Positions 6,221-10,847 of a stretch of 33,688 nt of DNA are shown one piece after another. A program made the translations under genes and the position numbers. Position 1 is the first letter of the stretch. Every line of letters begins with the position of its first letter. Source of the DNA: Henriciella sp. (GTDB taxonomy: Bacteria > Pseudomonadota > Alphaproteobacteria > Caulobacterales > Hyphomonadaceae); contig JABSQA010000022.1 in NCBI GenBank assembly GCA_013213825.1, forward strand, positions 1 to 33,688. Reading direction: 5' to 3'. Below the pieces are notes generated by a model, which searched no databases, was not told where the DNA came from, and worked only from the letters and a program-made list of their open reading frames with translations.

Positions 6221-6774
6221 TGAGGTGTCCTCGCCTCGTCTTCAGTTACGGCCCCAGCCGCTTTGTCTTGTCGCGACATTAGGAACTGGTCCGCAAAGAG
6301 CAAGACCGCACCTACAGAAATGGCCGCATCCGCGACGTTGAATACGTAATTGAAAAAGTATGGCCGCAATATGCCGCTAAAGTCGAGAAAATCGACGACG
6401 GCGCCAAATCGAACGCGGTCAATCACATTGCCGAAGGCACCGCCAATCACCATGGCCAGGGCGATCCCGGTCAAACGGCGGGAGGCGCGCAGCAGCCAGA
6501 CCGTAAAACCAATGGCAATTGCGGTGGTCAGGATGACCAATAACCACCGCATAATCCCTTCCGATTGACCAATTCCAAAGCTGATTCCGCGATTCCAAAC
6601 CATGTGTAGGTCGAAGAAGGGCAGAACATCGATATGCCCACAGCGTTCCGTCCGATCCAAACAGCCAAGCGCATTAAAAGTCGGCTCGTTCAGGATCAGC
6701 CCTTTGCTCCACTGGTCCAGGAGCACAATGGTTGGAATCAGAAAGAAAAGGCCATTGCGGAAGCTTTTGGTCAT
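6217..6774 (-). CDS. lspA: Lipoprotein signal peptidase (signal peptidase II)
   Basis: Inner-membrane aspartyl protease that cleaves diacylglyceryl-modified prolipoproteins before the lipidated Cys. At 185 residues with four hydrophobic segments it is close to family length. The catalytic Asp pair lies in GNVIDR (D119) and FNVADA (D149), with the conserved VVDFLDF between them. The first periplasmic loop contains two Cys (ALGCLDRTERCGH) that could form a disulfide. The ATG overlaps the ileS stop (ATGA) and the TGA overlaps the next ATG (ATGA), so three genes are coupled. Several proteins in this window with lipoboxes would be its substrates. Confidence 0.96.
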   Translation of the reverse strand: MTKSFRNGLFFLIPTIVLLDQWSKGLILNEPTFNALGCLDRTERCGHIDVLPFFDLHMVWNRGISFGIGQSEGIMRWLLVILTTAIAIGFTVWLLRASRRLTGIALAMVIGGAFGNVIDRVRFGAVVDFLDFSGILRPYFFNYVFNVADAAISVGAVLLFADQFLMSRQDKAAGAVTEDEARTPQ

Positions 6775-9773
6775 GAATTACCTCTGATCTCCCGAATAGC
6801 AGCGGCATCGCGGGGTGTCACATCCGGAAACTCCGGATCTGCGCCGGCTGGATCGAAATATTTCCAACTCCGAAGGCACTTCACACCGCTCGCTTGACCC
6901 GGTAATACGGCCACGCTGGCTTCTTCGGGCAAACGGAAGGCGTCCGCTGGCGCAGCTTCGGTGACCAGCTCGGCTTGTGACGTGATGAAGATGTCCTCCG
7001 CCACTTCGCCCTCATAAGCGGCCAATAAGTCTGCATCAGCGATAAAGACTTTCGGCGCGGCTTCGAGCGACGAGCCGATCCGCTTTTCTTTGCGCTCAAT
7101 CTCAATCGCACCAGTGACCACGCGGCGCACGCGGAAGATTTTCTCCCAGCGCGCGGCCAGGTCTTCATCTTTCCAGTCGAGCGGCGTTTCGGGGAATTGC
7201 AGCAAATGGACACTGTCAGCCCGGTCGGCAAACACACTCATCAAGAAAGTTTCTTCGGTTGTGAATGGCATGATCGGGGCCAGCCAGGCTAAAAGACGCT
7301 CTAAGATCGCCGCCATGACGGTGCGGGCGGAGCGACGACGAACATCGCTCGGCGCATCGCAATAGAGGCTATCTTTGCGAATATCGAAATAGACCGCTGA
7401 CAAGTCTACAGAGCAGAAGTTGAGCAAGGCCGCCATGACGCGCTTAAAGTCATGCTCTTCATAGGCTTTGCGCACCAGCTCATCGAGCTCTGCCAAACGG
7501 TGCAGGACCCAGTTTTCGAGGCTGGGCATTTCCACCGGCAGAACCGCTTCGCCGGGCGTATAGCCATGCAGCGCGCCCAAGAGATACCGCATCGTGTTGC
7601 GCAAGCGGCGATAATTCTCGACCGCGCCCTTGATGATCTCATCCGAGATGCGGAGGTCTTCGGTATAGTCAGCGCTGGCGGTCCAGAGACGCAAGATCTC
7701 AATGCCATATTGTTTGGCAAAGTCCGCCGGGTCGATCGTATTGCCGATCGACTTGGACATTTTCTTGCCCTCGCCATCGACAATCATACCGTGCGTGACG
7801 ACTTGTTTGAACGGCGCCATGCCGCGTGTGGCGCAGCTTTCGAGCAAGGAGGATTGGAACCAACCCCGATGTTGGTCAGAGCCTTCCATGTAAACATCCG
7901 CAACACCGGTCTCATCATCAATGATGCCGCGATCGCGCAGCGCAAAAGCGTGCGTGGTGCCTGAATCGAACCAGACATCGAGCACGTCATTGACTTTGTC
8001 CCAGCCGGCCGGATCGTCCAGGAAGTCGCTGACCTCAGCAGAGAACCAGCCTTCAACGCCCTCTTCGCGGATTTTGGCGAGGATTTTCTCGTTCACGGCA
8101 GCCGCATCGGCTTCGCTCATTGCAGCTGTGTGCGGCTCGCCTTTCTCATTGACCAGCAGCGTGATCGGCACGCCCCAATTGCGCTGGCGAGAGATCAGCC
8201 AGTCTGGGCGATCTGCAACCATGGCTTTCAAGCGATTATAGCCGGTCGGCGGCACGAATTTGGTCTGTTCGATTCCTTCAAGCGCCATCTCCCGCAGGGG
8301 CCGCGAGCCGTCTTTGCCGGGCGTGTCCATAGCGATGAACCATTGCGGCGTGGCACGACGGATCACCGGCGCTTTTGACCGCCAAGAATGGGCGTCGCGA
8401 ATGCTGGTCATGCCGCGCGCCAGGAGGTTCCCGCTCTCGGCAAGGAGGCGAATAACTTCCGGATTGGCCTTGCCTTGCTCCCCGCGCTTCTTGCCAGAGG
8501 TACGGATGATATCCAGCCCGCGCAGGGGTTCAGGAACGTCGTCCGTGTAGCAGCCGTCTGGATCGACGATCTGGCGGATCTGCTGCGTTGTGCGACCGGA
8601 TTCAACCCAGACATTGAAGTCATCCTCGCCGTGGGCCGGTGCGGTATGGACGAAGCCGGTACCGGCATCATCGGTGACATGGTCTCCGGCGAGCATTGGG
8701 ATGTCGTGCTGGAAGAACGGGTCCAGATCCGCGAGCGGATGTGACAAAACAAGGTGTTGAACGATATCTTCCACCGGCAGGTCAATCACTTGACGATATT
8801 TGGTCGCTTTCGCACCGTTCATAACCTCCTCCACGCGGGCATCAGCGATGATTAGAAGCTCTCCTTCTTTCACGTAAGGTGCGAAGCCAAGCTCCTCAGC
8901 CGACATGACTTCTTCGACCTCATACAATGAGTATTGAATGCCGGAATTGAAGCTCACAGCCTGGTTGGCCGGGATCGTCCATGGCGTGGTGGTCCAGATC
9001 ACAACGCTCGCATGCTCGACACCATCGTAGTGTCCTGAAGTGTCTATTGGGGTGGGGTCTTTATACGTCTTGCTGACGTTCACCGGAAACTTCACCCAAA
9101 TCACCGGCACCTTGCGGTCGTGATATTCCACCTCAGCTTCCGCCAAAGCCGTCCGCTCAACCGGGGACCACATCACTGGTTTCGCCCCGCGGACCAAGCG
9201 GCCGCCCATGGCGACGCGCAGGAATTCGCGCACGGTCGCTGCTTCAGACTCGAAATTCATGGTCAGGTATGGGTCGTCCCACTCGCCTTCGACACCGCAT
9301 CGGCGGAACCCAGCTTTTTGGACCTCAATCCACTCGGCTGCGTATTCCCGGCAGGCGCGGCGGAATTCGTCGCCGGGGACGTCATCCTTGGTCCGGCCTT
9401 TGGAGCGGAATTGTTCTTCCACTTTCCATTCGATTGGCAGGCCGTGACAGTCCCAACCTGGAAGATACGACGCATCATAGCCGCGCATCTGATGATTGCG
9501 GACAATGATATCCTTGATGATCTTGTTCATCGCGGTGCCGAGATGGATCGGACCATTCGCATAAGGCGGGCCATCATGCAGGATGAAGGGCTCCGCGCCG
9601 CGCGCCTTGGCATCAGCACGGAAGCGCTCATACAGCTTCATCTCATCCCATTTCTCGATCCATTTCGGCTCGGCTTTTGGCAAGCCGCCGCGCATCGGGA
9701 AATCGGTGGTCGGCAAGAACAATGTGTCCTTGTACGGGTTTTCAGGTTTTTTCGGTTTGTCAGTATCGGCCAT
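6771..9773 (-). CDS. ileS: Isoleucyl-tRNA synthetase
   Basis: Class Ia synthetase of 1000 residues charging tRNA-Ile. The HIGH motif appears as HLGT (residues 77-80, within PPYANGPIHLGT) and KMSKS lies at about residues 671-675 (GEGKKMSKSIGN). The large CP1 editing insertion lies between them and the anticodon-binding domain follows. The C-terminal tail reads KCLRSWKYFDP and lacks the CxxC pairs that bind zinc in the E. coli enzyme; I recall this loss as usual in alphaproteobacterial IleRS. It starts 156 bases after the ribF stop, a gap that holds a candidate Ile-rich leader, and overlaps lspA by four bases. No strong Shine-Dalgarno is seen before the ATG. Confidence 0.97.
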   Translation of the reverse strand: MADTDKPKKPENPYKDTLFLPTTDFPMRGGLPKAEPKWIEKWDEMKLYERFRADAKARGAEPFILHDGPPYANGPIHLGTAMNKIIKDIIVRNHQMRGYDASYLPGWDCHGLPIEWKVEEQFRSKGRTKDDVPGDEFRRACREYAAEWIEVQKAGFRRCGVEGEWDDPYLTMNFESEAATVREFLRVAMGGRLVRGAKPVMWSPVERTALAEAEVEYHDRKVPVIWVKFPVNVSKTYKDPTPIDTSGHYDGVEHASVVIWTTTPWTIPANQAVSFNSGIQYSLYEVEEVMSAEELGFAPYVKEGELLIIADARVEEVMNGAKATKYRQVIDLPVEDIVQHLVLSHPLADLDPFFQHDIPMLAGDHVTDDAGTGFVHTAPAHGEDDFNVWVESGRTTQQIRQIVDPDGCYTDDVPEPLRGLDIIRTSGKKRGEQGKANPEVIRLLAESGNLLARGMTSIRDAHSWRSKAPVIRRATPQWFIAMDTPGKDGSRPLREMALEGIEQTKFVPPTGYNRLKAMVADRPDWLISRQRNWGVPITLLVNEKGEPHTAAMSEADAAAVNEKILAKIREEGVEGWFSAEVSDFLDDPAGWDKVNDVLDVWFDSGTTHAFALRDRGIIDDETGVADVYMEGSDQHRGWFQSSLLESCATRGMAPFKQVVTHGMIVDGEGKKMSKSIGNTIDPADFAKQYGIEILRLWTASADYTEDLRISDEIIKGAVENYRRLRNTMRYLLGALHGYTPGEAVLPVEMPSLENWVLHRLAELDELVRKAYEEHDFKRVMAALLNFCSVDLSAVYFDIRKDSLYCDAPSDVRRRSARTVMAAILERLLAWLAPIMPFTTEETFLMSVFADRADSVHLLQFPETPLDWKDEDLAARWEKIFRVRRVVTGAIEIERKEKRIGSSLEAAPKVFIADADLLAAYEGEVAEDIFITSQAELVTEAAPADAFRLPEEASVAVLPGQASGVKCLRSWKYFDPAGADPEFPDVTPRDAAAIREIRGNS

Positions 9774-9817
9774 TTGGACGTCTTCGGATCAGCGTGTGAA
9801 GAAAGGGCTAAGCAATA

Positions 9818-9854
9818 GGTCCCCGGCCGCGAGCTCTAAGTGGAGCGGGCGACC
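9818..9854 (-). promoter_or_regulatory. Inverted-repeat region before ileS, possible attenuator structure
   Basis: On the transcribed strand GGTC-G-CCC (9854-9847) can pair with GGG-GACC (9824-9818) with one bulged base, and a GCTC/GAGC hairpin is nested inside. An alternative CCCGG/CCGGG pairing (9857-9853 with 9826-9822) overlaps it, so two exclusive folds are possible. This sits just after the Ile codons of the leader ORF. No T-run follows, so it is not a standard intrinsic terminator; Rho or translational control would be needed. Confidence 0.35.
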
Positions 9855-9898
9855 GGGCCGCTAATTCGAATAATAGATATGATTGCTGCCCGTTTCAT
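9836..9898 (-). CDS. Candidate Ile-rich leader peptide of ileS (20 aa)
   Basis: A 20-codon ORF between ribF and ileS beginning MKRAAIISIIRI and ending at TAG. Five of codons 6-12 are Ile (ATC, ATA, ATT, ATT, ATT), directly upstream of the Ile-tRNA synthetase gene and followed at once by sequence that can form alternative hairpins. This is the layout expected of ribosome-mediated attenuation, where low charged tRNA-Ile stalls the ribosome on the Ile run. There is no clear ribosome binding site. Its ATG instead overlaps the TGA of an 11-codon ORF (TGATG) whose own ATG overlaps the ribF stop (ATGA), so ribosomes could arrive by reinitiation. The Ile run could be chance in a short ORF. Confidence 0.42.
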   Translation of the reverse strand: MKRAAIISIIRISGPVARST

Positions 9899-9933
9899 CA
9901 GGCCCGCTTAGCAGGGCTCGCAGCCCCTGTCAT
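9898..9933 (-). other. 11-aa mini-ORF linking the ribF stop to the Ile-rich leader
   Basis: ATG overlaps the ribF TGA as ATGA. It reads MTGAASPAKRA and ends at a TGA overlapping the next ATG as TGATG. It contains a GGGCT-GCG-AGCCC hairpin. It would matter only as a reinitiation relay to the Ile-rich leader; there is no independent evidence that it is translated. Confidence 0.25.
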
Positions 9934-10847
9934 CCCGCCAGATGATGCTGTGCGGTCTCAACATCTTTGTGCATTTGCGTGACCATATCGTCGAGCACAT
10001 CGAATTTTAGCTCTGGCCGCAGGAATCGAACCAAAGCGACTTCCAAATGCTGGCCGTAAATGTCGCCATCATAGTCAAAGATGAACGTCTCGAGCAGAGG
10101 GTCGCGAATGCCCGTGGTTGGCGTGCGGCCAAAATTGGCCACGCCGCCCCGCCAAGCCTGTTCCCCAGTCAGGCGGACCCGAACGGCATAGACGCCATGA
10201 CGCGGATGGATGAGCTCGCCCAGATGCAGATTTGCGGTCGGGAACCCAATCGTACGCCCGCGTTTCTCGCCATGCTCAACGGTGCCATCAGCAATCCAGT
10301 CATGACCGAGAATTTCGGCGGCCTTTTCTGGCTCACCCGCAATCAGCGCTTCGCGAATGGCCGTCGAAGAGGCTTTGGCGCCCAGTGCTTCAATCTTCTC
10401 GATGACCGTGACGCCAAACCCGAGCGCCCGGCCGAGCGAGGCCAATCGCCCGGCATCGCCCATGCGACCACGACCAAAGCGAAAGTCAAAGCCAACGGTG
10501 ACATGCGCCGCGCCAATGCCATTCTTGAGCACGTCGCGGGCGAAGTCTTCGTCCGTCATCGCCGCCATGTCAGCATTGAAGGGCAATTCATACACTGCCT
10601 TCGCGCCGAGCTCTGCCAAACGGGCATTGCGCCGCGCCGGGCGATAAATCCGAAACGGAGGGTCATCAGGCCGGAAGAATTGTCGTGGCGGCGGCTCAAA
10701 TGTGGCCACCCCGAGCGGCGCACCCGCGGCAATCGCCCCCTCAATCACGGCGCGATGTCCAGCATGCACCCCATCAAAATTGCCCAAAGCGACTGAATGT
10801 CCGCGCGCGGACTCAGGCACATCTTTATAATGGGCAATCACTGTCAT
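9930..10847 (-). CDS. ribF: Bifunctional riboflavin kinase / FAD synthetase
   Basis: A 305-residue cytoplasmic enzyme that phosphorylates riboflavin to FMN and adenylates FMN to FAD. The N-terminal nucleotidyltransferase has GNFDGVHAGH (residues 22-31), GFDFRFGRGR and SSTAIR. The C-terminal kinase domain has GFPTANLHL and the glycine-rich stretch ending in GVYAVRV. Length and domain order are standard. It starts directly after the maoC-like stop (TAA then ATG, no gap) and precedes ileS, the common ribF-ileS-lspA order of proteobacteria. The FMN-dependent nitroreductase at 14031-15182 is one possible consumer of its product. Confidence 0.96.
   Translation of the reverse strand: MTVIAHYKDVPESARGHSVALGNFDGVHAGHRAVIEGAIAAGAPLGVATFEPPPRQFFRPDDPPFRIYRPARRNARLAELGAKAVYELPFNADMAAMTDEDFARDVLKNGIGAAHVTVGFDFRFGRGRMGDAGRLASLGRALGFGVTVIEKIEALGAKASSTAIREALIAGEPEKAAEILGHDWIADGTVEHGEKRGRTIGFPTANLHLGELIHPRHGVYAVRVRLTGEQAWRGGVANFGRTPTTGIRDPLLETFIFDYDGDIYGQHLEVALVRFLRPELKFDVLDDMVTQMHKDVETAQHHLAG

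Follow-up and report, generated by a model that had tools for sequence, protein, structure and literature searches.

On the minus strand of the window, by which we mean the whole 33,688-nucleotide stretch of Henriciella sp. DNA that was analysed, a short open reading frame (ORF), a near-invariant heptamer, a hairpin and promoter-like boxes lie between ribF and ileS, together with an anti-element that sits 10-21 nt ahead of the A of the ileS ATG (Table 1). An earlier note on this DNA had drawn attention to an Ile-rich ORF of 20 codons in this gap, and translation confirms it, with Ile at codons 6, 7, 9, 10 and 12 as claimed. The leader codons CGA ATT A lead straight into the CCCGG/CCGGG hairpin, whose 5' arm begins 11 nt past the first base of CGA, and the heptamer is mostly unpaired in a local fold of the element. 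Searches against Rfam gave no match at gathering thresholds over the whole window and none reaching E 10 at 9700-9960, and the latter result includes the T-box covariance model (RF00230).

Table 1. Features of the ribF-ileS region in the window
Feature	Position	Strand	Remarks
ribF	9930-10847	-	upstream of leader ORF
-35-like box ATGACA	9928-9933	-	promoter-like; overlaps ribF stop codon
-10-like box GCTAAG	9907-9912	-	promoter-like; GCTA ends 10 nt before leader ATG
leader ORF	9836-9898	-	20 codons + TAG; translation MKRAAIISIIRISGPVARST
heptamer CGAATTA	9862-9868	-	near-invariant; codons CGA-ATT-A..; conserved in leaders
hairpin CCCGGUCGC...GCGGCCGGG	9822-9857	-	encloses ORF end and stop TAG (9838-9836)
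anti-element CGCUGAUCCGAA	9783-9794	-	complements UUCGAAUUAGCG (9859-9870)
ileS	6771-9773	-	isoleucyl-tRNA synthetase; presumed regulated gene; downstream of leader ORF

Conservation of the leader reading frame before ileS

We gathered ileS upstream regions from 80 named genome contigs, from the genus, from the family and from an evenly drawn sample of the class, and defined the core of the element as CGAATTA-N4-CCCGG together with 11 accepted one- to three-base variants. The genus set comprised 29 genomes, 28 of which have ileS (our own genome included) and one of which gave no ileS match; in the class sample 142 genomes were searched, yielding 109 loci, 108 of them with a recognisable ileS, the most divergent ileS matches being left out. 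The group names of many loci are inferred, including Caulobacteraceae for L145 and L166-L182 (family f2). The core is present at all 28 ileS loci of the genus, at 41 of the 42 family loci that were retrieved (the sole miss being a 306-base fragment), at 73 of the 80 named loci and at 28 of the 108 class-sample loci; at the other 80 class-sample loci it was not found ahead of ileS. Named carriers include Hyphomonas, Ponticaulis, Maricaulis, Glycocaulis, Paracoccus, Rhizobium, Agrobacterium and Cohaesibacter; in Parvularcula (L020), to give one example, a search of about 520 nt upstream of ileS did not reveal the core. Order-level relatives encode peptides such as MSFVRKIARIIRPA (L166) before ileS.

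The Henriciella sp. genome holds a single exact copy of CGAATTANNNGCCCGG. A covariance model, R1, built from 13 leaders (11 from genes other than ileS and two from distant ileS), matches the window at 9822-9868 on the minus strand with 31.2 bits (E 5.6e-4); in an R1 search of the whole genome, where 150 of 1479 first-look candidates were scored, this was the only match with E up to 10. Given that the core stands at every ileS locus of the genus and that R1 matches only once among the genome candidates scored, we regard the window element as more than chance. The check on related genomes put forward in the earlier note is answered as well, because an Ile-rich ORF does occur at the same place before ileS; judged by sequence alone, the leader ORF with its hairpin is conserved in many alphaproteobacteria.

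The frame was tested on 155 distinct ileS leaders, 145 of them with the exact core, after removal of leaders identical over the 120-nt comparison stretch. An in-frame ATG within 60 nt, with no intervening stop, is found for frame 0 in 151 of the 155, for frame 1 in 9 and for frame 2 in 21; the stop lies 7-10 codons past CGA in 148 leaders, and the leader ends follow the pattern (I)-R-I-x-x-P. Ile is the commonest residue between ATG and CGA, at 18.4% of 1480 codons in the full set; once the set is thinned to 104 representatives with less than 70% identity it is 16.8% of 1050 codons, and the other frames give 2.9-3.8% there (2.6-4.4% overall). In 80 ileS genes Ile makes up 4.6% of residues. Leu and Val account for 4.7% and 3.7% of the codons before CGA. 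The enrichment in frame 0 peaks next to the heptamer, with Ile at position -1 in 44% and at position -2 in 33% of the representatives. ATA, ATT and ATC supply 33%, 38% and 29% of the leader Ile codons and 1.7%, 11.3% and 87.1% of those in the 80 ileS genes, and ATG replaces an Ile codon at positions -1 to -4 only 1, 1, 1 and 2 times. The only near-universal Ile codon is the ATT of the core; some leaders have no earlier Ile, for example MADARTQ-RIMSLASA (L031). The earlier note would have been refuted by a lack of coding constraint, which is instead evident in the frame-0 ATG, in the retention of Ile through three synonymous codons and in the narrow stop distance. Comparison shows the putative leader ORF to be conserved as a reading frame, and Ile enrichment by way of the normally rare ATA and ATT is, at the level of codon usage, the look that would be expected of an Ile-tRNA sensor.

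CGA and ATT are each found in 154 of the 155 leaders. We stress that this set was picked mainly by the exact heptamer motif, so that both counts are biased by selection; a fairer test of the heptamer comes from scanning 258 ileS upstream regions, duplicates among them, for mismatches without prior selection. Of these regions 159 have no mismatch, 10 have one, 6 have two and 83 have three to five, most of the last being background-like. CGA makes up 2.3% of the Arg codons in ileS genes. The codon after ATT begins with A in 151 of the 155 leaders, though it encodes different residues (S, I, T, M, R, N), and this invariance of wobble and first bases beside a varying amino acid argues for constraint at the nucleotide level beyond the peptide. 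Simple codon counting gives no explanation for the frozen wobble bases of CGA and ATT. In one leader (L204, family f2; peptide MTVRVIRVISISRPA) TCG ATT AGC replaces CGA ATT AGC while the frame, the Ile codons and the hairpin are all retained, which offers a natural test of the need for CGA.

The hairpin, its competing pairings and the start of the transcript

A fold-based filter found the hairpin in 169 of 172 ileS-type leaders and in 28 of 30 others. Covariation was assessed on rows that passed this filter (three ileS and two other leaders being dropped), carry exact CCGGG and were deduplicated; pairs 1-5 belong to the search pattern or the filter and were excluded as evidence, and pair 6 is uninformative. 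By register only, among 90 distinct ileS rows, pair 7 is paired in 74 (shuffles: mean 42.3, maximum 56), pair 8 in 60 (mean 41.6, maximum 58), pair 9 in 66 (mean 50.1, maximum 63) and pair 10 in 47 (mean 30.8, maximum 46). When only Watson-Crick pairs are counted in these rows, pairs 7 and 9 beat every shuffle, pair 8 falls below the shuffle maximum (38, maximum 39) and pair 10 ties with it (43, maximum 43). Among 22 rows from genes other than ileS, pairs 8, 9 and 10 form in 18, 21 and 21, above all shuffles, and pair 7 fails to exceed all of them. The earlier note had named covariance of two alternative stems as a check; compensatory change is seen in the hairpin, and comparison shows a predicted, covarying hairpin directly behind the Ile codons that holds the end of the ORF and its stop.

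Within the genus a further pairing is possible. The duplex z-score of UUCGAAUUAGCG with CGCUGAUCCGAA is -4.0 in the window; in a first sub-group of 13 leaders (two of which, L015 and L322, come from outside the genus) the mean is -3.0, with 10 below -2, and in a second sub-group of 12 leaders it is -5.3, with all below -2. The partner in the second sub-group varies, as UAAUUCG (8), UGGUUCG (3), UGAUUCG (1) and UAGUUCG (1), with pairing kept through G-U. A long closing stem encloses the hairpin in the minimum-energy fold of the RNA 9871-9756, and its mean pairing probability is 0.75 and 0.67 in the two sub-groups against 0.15-0.32 in three other groups. Outside the genus, complements of the heptamer near ileS give group mean z-scores of only -0.5 to +0.4, and scores below -2 are absent from groups of 22, 15 and 10 leaders and occur in 1 of 19 and 5 of 62 leaders in two others (L008, among these five, being in the genus). 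In Hyphomonas, AGTTCG lies at most 40 nt behind the hairpin in 6 of 19 leaders (group mean z 1.15). Comparison shows the predicted complementarity of the heptamer to the ileS start region in the genus of the window.

The minimum-energy fold of the whole leader, 9898-9771, lacks the closing stem; the first codons of the ORF pair behind the hairpin instead. With a ribosome placed on the element, the ileS start region becomes hardly more accessible by computation (from 0.47 to 0.55 in HenrA and from 0.54 to 0.54 in HenrB). Because the whole-leader fold lacks the stem and accessibility hardly changes, the output step can only be a proposal. We set the pairing of the first codons aside, as the ORF-start side varies among close relatives and the downstream side is constant (by eye); in the modelled structures it is still a competing fold.

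Promoter-like boxes precede the leader in several groups. All 13 HenrA leaders, all 13 HenrB leaders and 18 of 19 Hyphomonas leaders have GCTA or GATAA at a distance of 10-14 nt ahead of the leader ATG. A -35-like box (TGACA or similar) is found in 12 of 13, 13 of 13 and 15 of 19 leaders of these three Hyphomonadaceae groups, and in 36 of the 40 leaders that have it the spacing to GCTA/GATAA is 15-16 nt. In Rhodobacterales, TATAA stands 6-13 nt before the leader ATG in 19 of 23 leaders, 14 of these 19 having a -35-like box, 13 of them at 18-nt spacing. A promoter-like box without a -35 box occurs in 7 of 9 leaders of other Rhizobiales and in only 1 of 15 of Rhizobiaceae, no box being found in the other 14. 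A sigma-70 consensus scan of the window did not flag the boxes there; the GCTA-type box resembles the housekeeping promoter of Caulobacter. These observations point to a putative promoter directly ahead of the leader ORF in two groups, Hyphomonadaceae and Rhodobacterales, and the lack of a Shine-Dalgarno sequence would be accounted for if the transcript began at the ORF or no more than a few bases from it. Leaderless mRNAs are common in Caulobacter (375; PMC4117421).

The earlier note had proposed a different route, with ribosomes reaching the leader ORF through a chain of overlaps from ribF. The ribF TGA/ATG overlap, an 11-codon ORF and a TGATG overlap are indeed all present in the window. 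When the window RibF was searched against up to 520 nt of sequence ahead of each leader, ribF was found in 8 of 13 HenrA and 1 of 13 HenrB leaders, in 6 of 15 from Rhizobiaceae and 2 of 9 from other Rhizobiales, and in none of the 19 Hyphomonas or 23 Rhodobacterales leaders. Since ribF lies upstream of few leaders in most groups, the chain is not a conserved feature; it stands as a description of the window and is unsupported as a ribosome route, and we reject read-through from ribF on this ground.

Leaders before genes other than ileS

Pattern scans gave at least one match in 138 of 385 genomes class-wide and in 102 of 150 order-wide. We inspected 117 matching rows, 53 before ileS and 64 others, one of the latter (L160) being a truncated ileS by eye. 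The 63 non-ileS rows comprise 29 before genes for ACT-like proteins, one before an ilvA-like gene (L334), three before NTF2-like genes and one before a kinase-like gene; the remaining 29 look accidental or unclear. Six of these last 29 (L335, L337, L345, L356, L371 and L386) lie in a long frame, ...ANYLPGPDDIY..., which we take to be the rho gene.

The 29 ACT-like proteins are small (about 85-150 residues as read) and have the consensus ACFSVxAxADPGVMPRVLExFAKRGLVP; a search with them returns the same 29 loci and no others. Two of five tested gave a hint, below the cut-off, of the Pfam ACT domain of the AHAS small subunit (E about 0.03), and a profile of the group had three weak matches in the PDB, two of them acetolactate synthase small subunits (E 0.84) and one a xylanase (E 0.9); NCBIfam had no name for the two members tested. 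At L336 the ACT-like gene is followed by a DUF4743 gene (Pfam E 1e-35), as it is, by eye, in several others.

The leader L334 directly precedes a threonine ammonia-lyase gene (NCBIfam PRK07334, E 1e-37 over a 125-residue piece). A citramalate synthase gene (TIGR00977, E 5e-37, 128-residue piece) follows the ACT-like gene at L129, and a protein read as threonine ammonia-lyase (not scanned) follows it at L369. In one genome (G155) the leader stands ahead of three genes, namely ileS (L194), an ACT-like gene (L131) and ilvA (L334). The targets that could be named are Ile-related, though the placing of the ACT-like, NTF2-like and kinase-like ones is not firm.

For the 29 ACT-gene leaders, chosen by downstream homology alone, an in-frame ATG is found in 29, 0 and 1 for frames 0, 1 and 2, against 12, 12 and 6 for the 35 other rows. 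A previous count of 30 in-frame ATGs in 30 leaders is not independent, as those leaders were picked partly for having an ATG. Ile makes up 12% of the codons before CGA in the ACT leaders (L334 included) and 1.6-3.9% in the other frames; of these 35 Ile codons 20 are ATC, 12 ATT and 3 ATA, so that the ATA enrichment is absent from the non-ileS leaders. The upstream ORF stops inside the hairpin in 13 of 28 non-ileS leaders. The other 15 run past the hairpin, many of them reaching about 28-40 codons and overlapping the start of the ACT gene (e.g. L355, L363, L381), and such overruns suggest a different output, by translation overlap.

Some further features were noted in these leaders. About 7-12 nt behind the ACT-leader hairpin is an (A/G)UUCGUCC-like stretch, partly complementary to CGAAU; an ATTCG-like anti-element that follows the hairpin scores a mean z of 1.1 over 30 leaders of ACT and other non-ileS genes, only mildly above shuffles. 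L152, L153 and L154, all from one genus, have leaders with RITTPA, RISNPA and RISIPA plus CCCGGCCUGAUCCGUUCAGGCCGGG, and the protein downstream of L152 is weakly similar to the NTF2-like DUF6841 (E 0.017, below the cut-off). At L347 a leader-like element with hairpin precedes, by eye, a small P-loop kinase-like gene.

Proposed control of ileS and competing readings

The earlier note had suggested ribosome-mediated leader-peptide control of ileS, and the comparison of frame, Ile codons and covarying hairpin supports this. We consider it likely, with good confidence, that the element is an isoleucine-tRNA-sensing leader-peptide control region for ileS; the mechanism is inferred, there being no expression or ribosome data for Henriciella sp. 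We propose that the transcript begins at the leader ATG or just ahead of it, which would allow the ORF to be translated without a Shine-Dalgarno sequence. With plentiful Ile-tRNA, the ribosome would reach the stop inside the hairpin and depart, and the hairpin would close; in Henriciella, CGAAUUAGCG could also pair with CGCUGAUCCG ahead of the ileS start, and ileS would be held low. When Ile-tRNA is short, the ribosome would stall with AUU (or an earlier Ile codon) in the A site and, assuming a footprint of textbook size, would cover CGAAUUA and the 5' arm CCCGG, so that both structures stay open and ileS is expressed. Very probably, the cell makes more IleRS when Ile-loaded tRNA is short, the response to isoleucine being itself an inference.

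Three features expected of such a system are present, namely a short conserved ORF on the same strand before the gene, its enrichment in codons for the amino acid of the gene product (Ile) and an RNA structure near the critical codons, here the covarying hairpin, that a stalled ribosome could alter. Support for an alternative structure is narrower, since the closing stem is confined to the genus and a few close relatives and is absent from the whole-leader fold, with weak short complements elsewhere. An intrinsic terminator with a U-run is not supported, and this lowers the claim to the classical transcriptional subtype, not that to ribosome-mediated control.

We also entertain, tentatively and with less than even confidence, a more specific reading, in which the element belongs to an undescribed, ancient family of Ile leaders in Alphaproteobacteria, placed before ileS, threonine ammonia-lyase and ACT-like (IlvH-like) genes and able to form a small regulon within a single genome, with CGA-AUU-A itself as the sensor. 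CGA in the P site beside AUU in the A site would make decoding unusually sensitive to Ile-tRNA, or the heptamer would be read as RNA; in either case one fixed site, and not a run of codons, would set the response.

A trp/ilv-type transcription attenuation, in which the CCCGG/CCGGG hairpin ends transcription, intrinsically or with help from Rho, unless a stalled ribosome prevents it, is possible to about the same degree. The hairpin does lie directly behind the Ile codons in the examined clades, hairpin tails are T-rich in part of Rhizobiaceae (mean 4.1 T in 9 nt; at least 5 in 4 of 15) and in a few relatives within the genus, such as L096 (GGGGTTTTTGCTTTTT), and the Caulobacter ilvBN leader has been described as an attenuator of this kind (PMC4117421). 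However, only 14 of 110 grouped ileS leaders have at least 5 T in the 9 nt after the hairpin, and no alternative antiterminator stem common to the clades was found. A terminator scan of the window likewise found no T-run terminator, as the earlier note had conceded. A classical U-run terminator is therefore not supported, and with U-rich tails so rare termination remains unproven. For Henriciella, release of ileS translation is the more likely output than escape from an intrinsic terminator, and elsewhere the output may differ; across the element as a whole, the choice among translation release, intrinsic termination and Rho termination is undecided and any output step a proposal.

If CGAAUUA and the hairpin were conserved as an RNA or RNA-protein element, with the ORF and its Ile codons incidental, the invariant wobble bases of CGA and ATT and the base that follows them, beside a varying next amino acid, would be accounted for, as would the many non-ileS leaders that do not stop inside the hairpin. 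We think this improbable, because the in-frame ATG is found in nearly all ileS leaders and in every ACT-gene leader, because Ile outside the heptamer is kept through three synonymous codons with ATG rare in its place, and because the frame-0 Ile enrichment peaks beside the heptamer. Arrest by the nascent peptide, with R-I-x-x-P stalling the ribosome whatever the level of Ile-tRNA and sensing something else, is similarly unlikely: leaders of different genes share R, I and P at the amino-acid level, but the conserved nucleotides CGAATTA and CCCGG account for all three, the Ile-rich stretches vary in sequence and not in residue, and the nameable target genes are Ile-related. That a chance Ile-rich ORF met a chance hairpin in a GC-rich gap is next to impossible, for a 20-codon ORF alone is weak evidence but conservation, frame, codon usage and covariation all oppose this reading, which comparison across relatives has already refuted.

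The kind of system that we propose is known. In enterobacteria the leader peptide that governs the synthetase gene pheST abounds in the cognate amino acid and acts through a classical terminator/antiterminator pair; the ileS leader is alike in joining a synthetase gene to a leader peptide of the cognate amino acid and differs in amino acid, bacterial class and RNA structure. The T-box of actinobacterial ileS is also an RNA control of ileS, by uncharged tRNA-Ile, but it binds the tRNA directly and has no leader ORF. Closer to the present class, a motif before cysS in Rhodobacterales, uORFC-8-2, has been proposed to be a ribosome-mediated attenuator (PMC8632094). It too lies before an alphaproteobacterial aminoacyl-tRNA synthetase gene and has a short upstream ORF, tandem cognate codons and stems; in contrast to the ileS element, its codons are for Cys, it is confined to one order and it has two prominent stems with an intrinsic terminator, and no shared sequence element is mentioned in the accessible text (PMC8632094). 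The leader attenuator of Caulobacter ilvBN/ilvIH (Tarleton 1994, cited in PMC4117421) is described as combining tandem codons for Ile and Val with a rho-independent terminator. It resembles the control proposed for ileS in having Ile (and Val) codons in a leader CDS, there before a branched-chain gene, and in responding to tRNA charging. The ileS element differs in its enrichment for Ile, its near-invariant CGA-AUU-A and, mostly, the lack of a U-run.

An ileS leader CDS, CCNA_03934, has been mapped in Caulobacter crescentus in a study that used ribosome profiling, 5'-RACE and mass spectrometry and was cloned as a negative control for overexpression; a trpS leader CDS is also named (PMC4117421). 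CCNA_03934 is likewise a small CDS before ileS in a related bacterium, and the available part of that paper describes for it no motif, conservation, Ile-codon content or regulatory role. It is likely the same leader as the present element, which has not been shown, there being no sequence comparison. An alphaproteobacterial screen met the ilvB leader peptide (PMC1273637), and its text contains no occurrence of ileS, isoleuc- or synthetase; nor do the accessible parts of PMC2965389 and PMC10117765 mention ileS. Among open PMC papers, supplements excluded, our searches turned up no description of an ileS leader element in alphaproteobacteria beyond PMC4117421. We found no printed account of the present element, of its heptamer or of its occurrence before several Ile-related genes.

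If our hypothesis is true, IleRS joins the few synthetases under leader-peptide control, and such control is spread over several alphaproteobacterial orders and not a local invention. It would also supply a signature of RNA and ORF for isoleucine control that crosses genes and is missing from Rfam. Caulobacter, with one ileS leader CDS mapped already (PMC4117421), is a tractable model. The near-invariant CGA-AUU-A poses a testable question, namely why the wobble bases of a sensing codon pair should be frozen.
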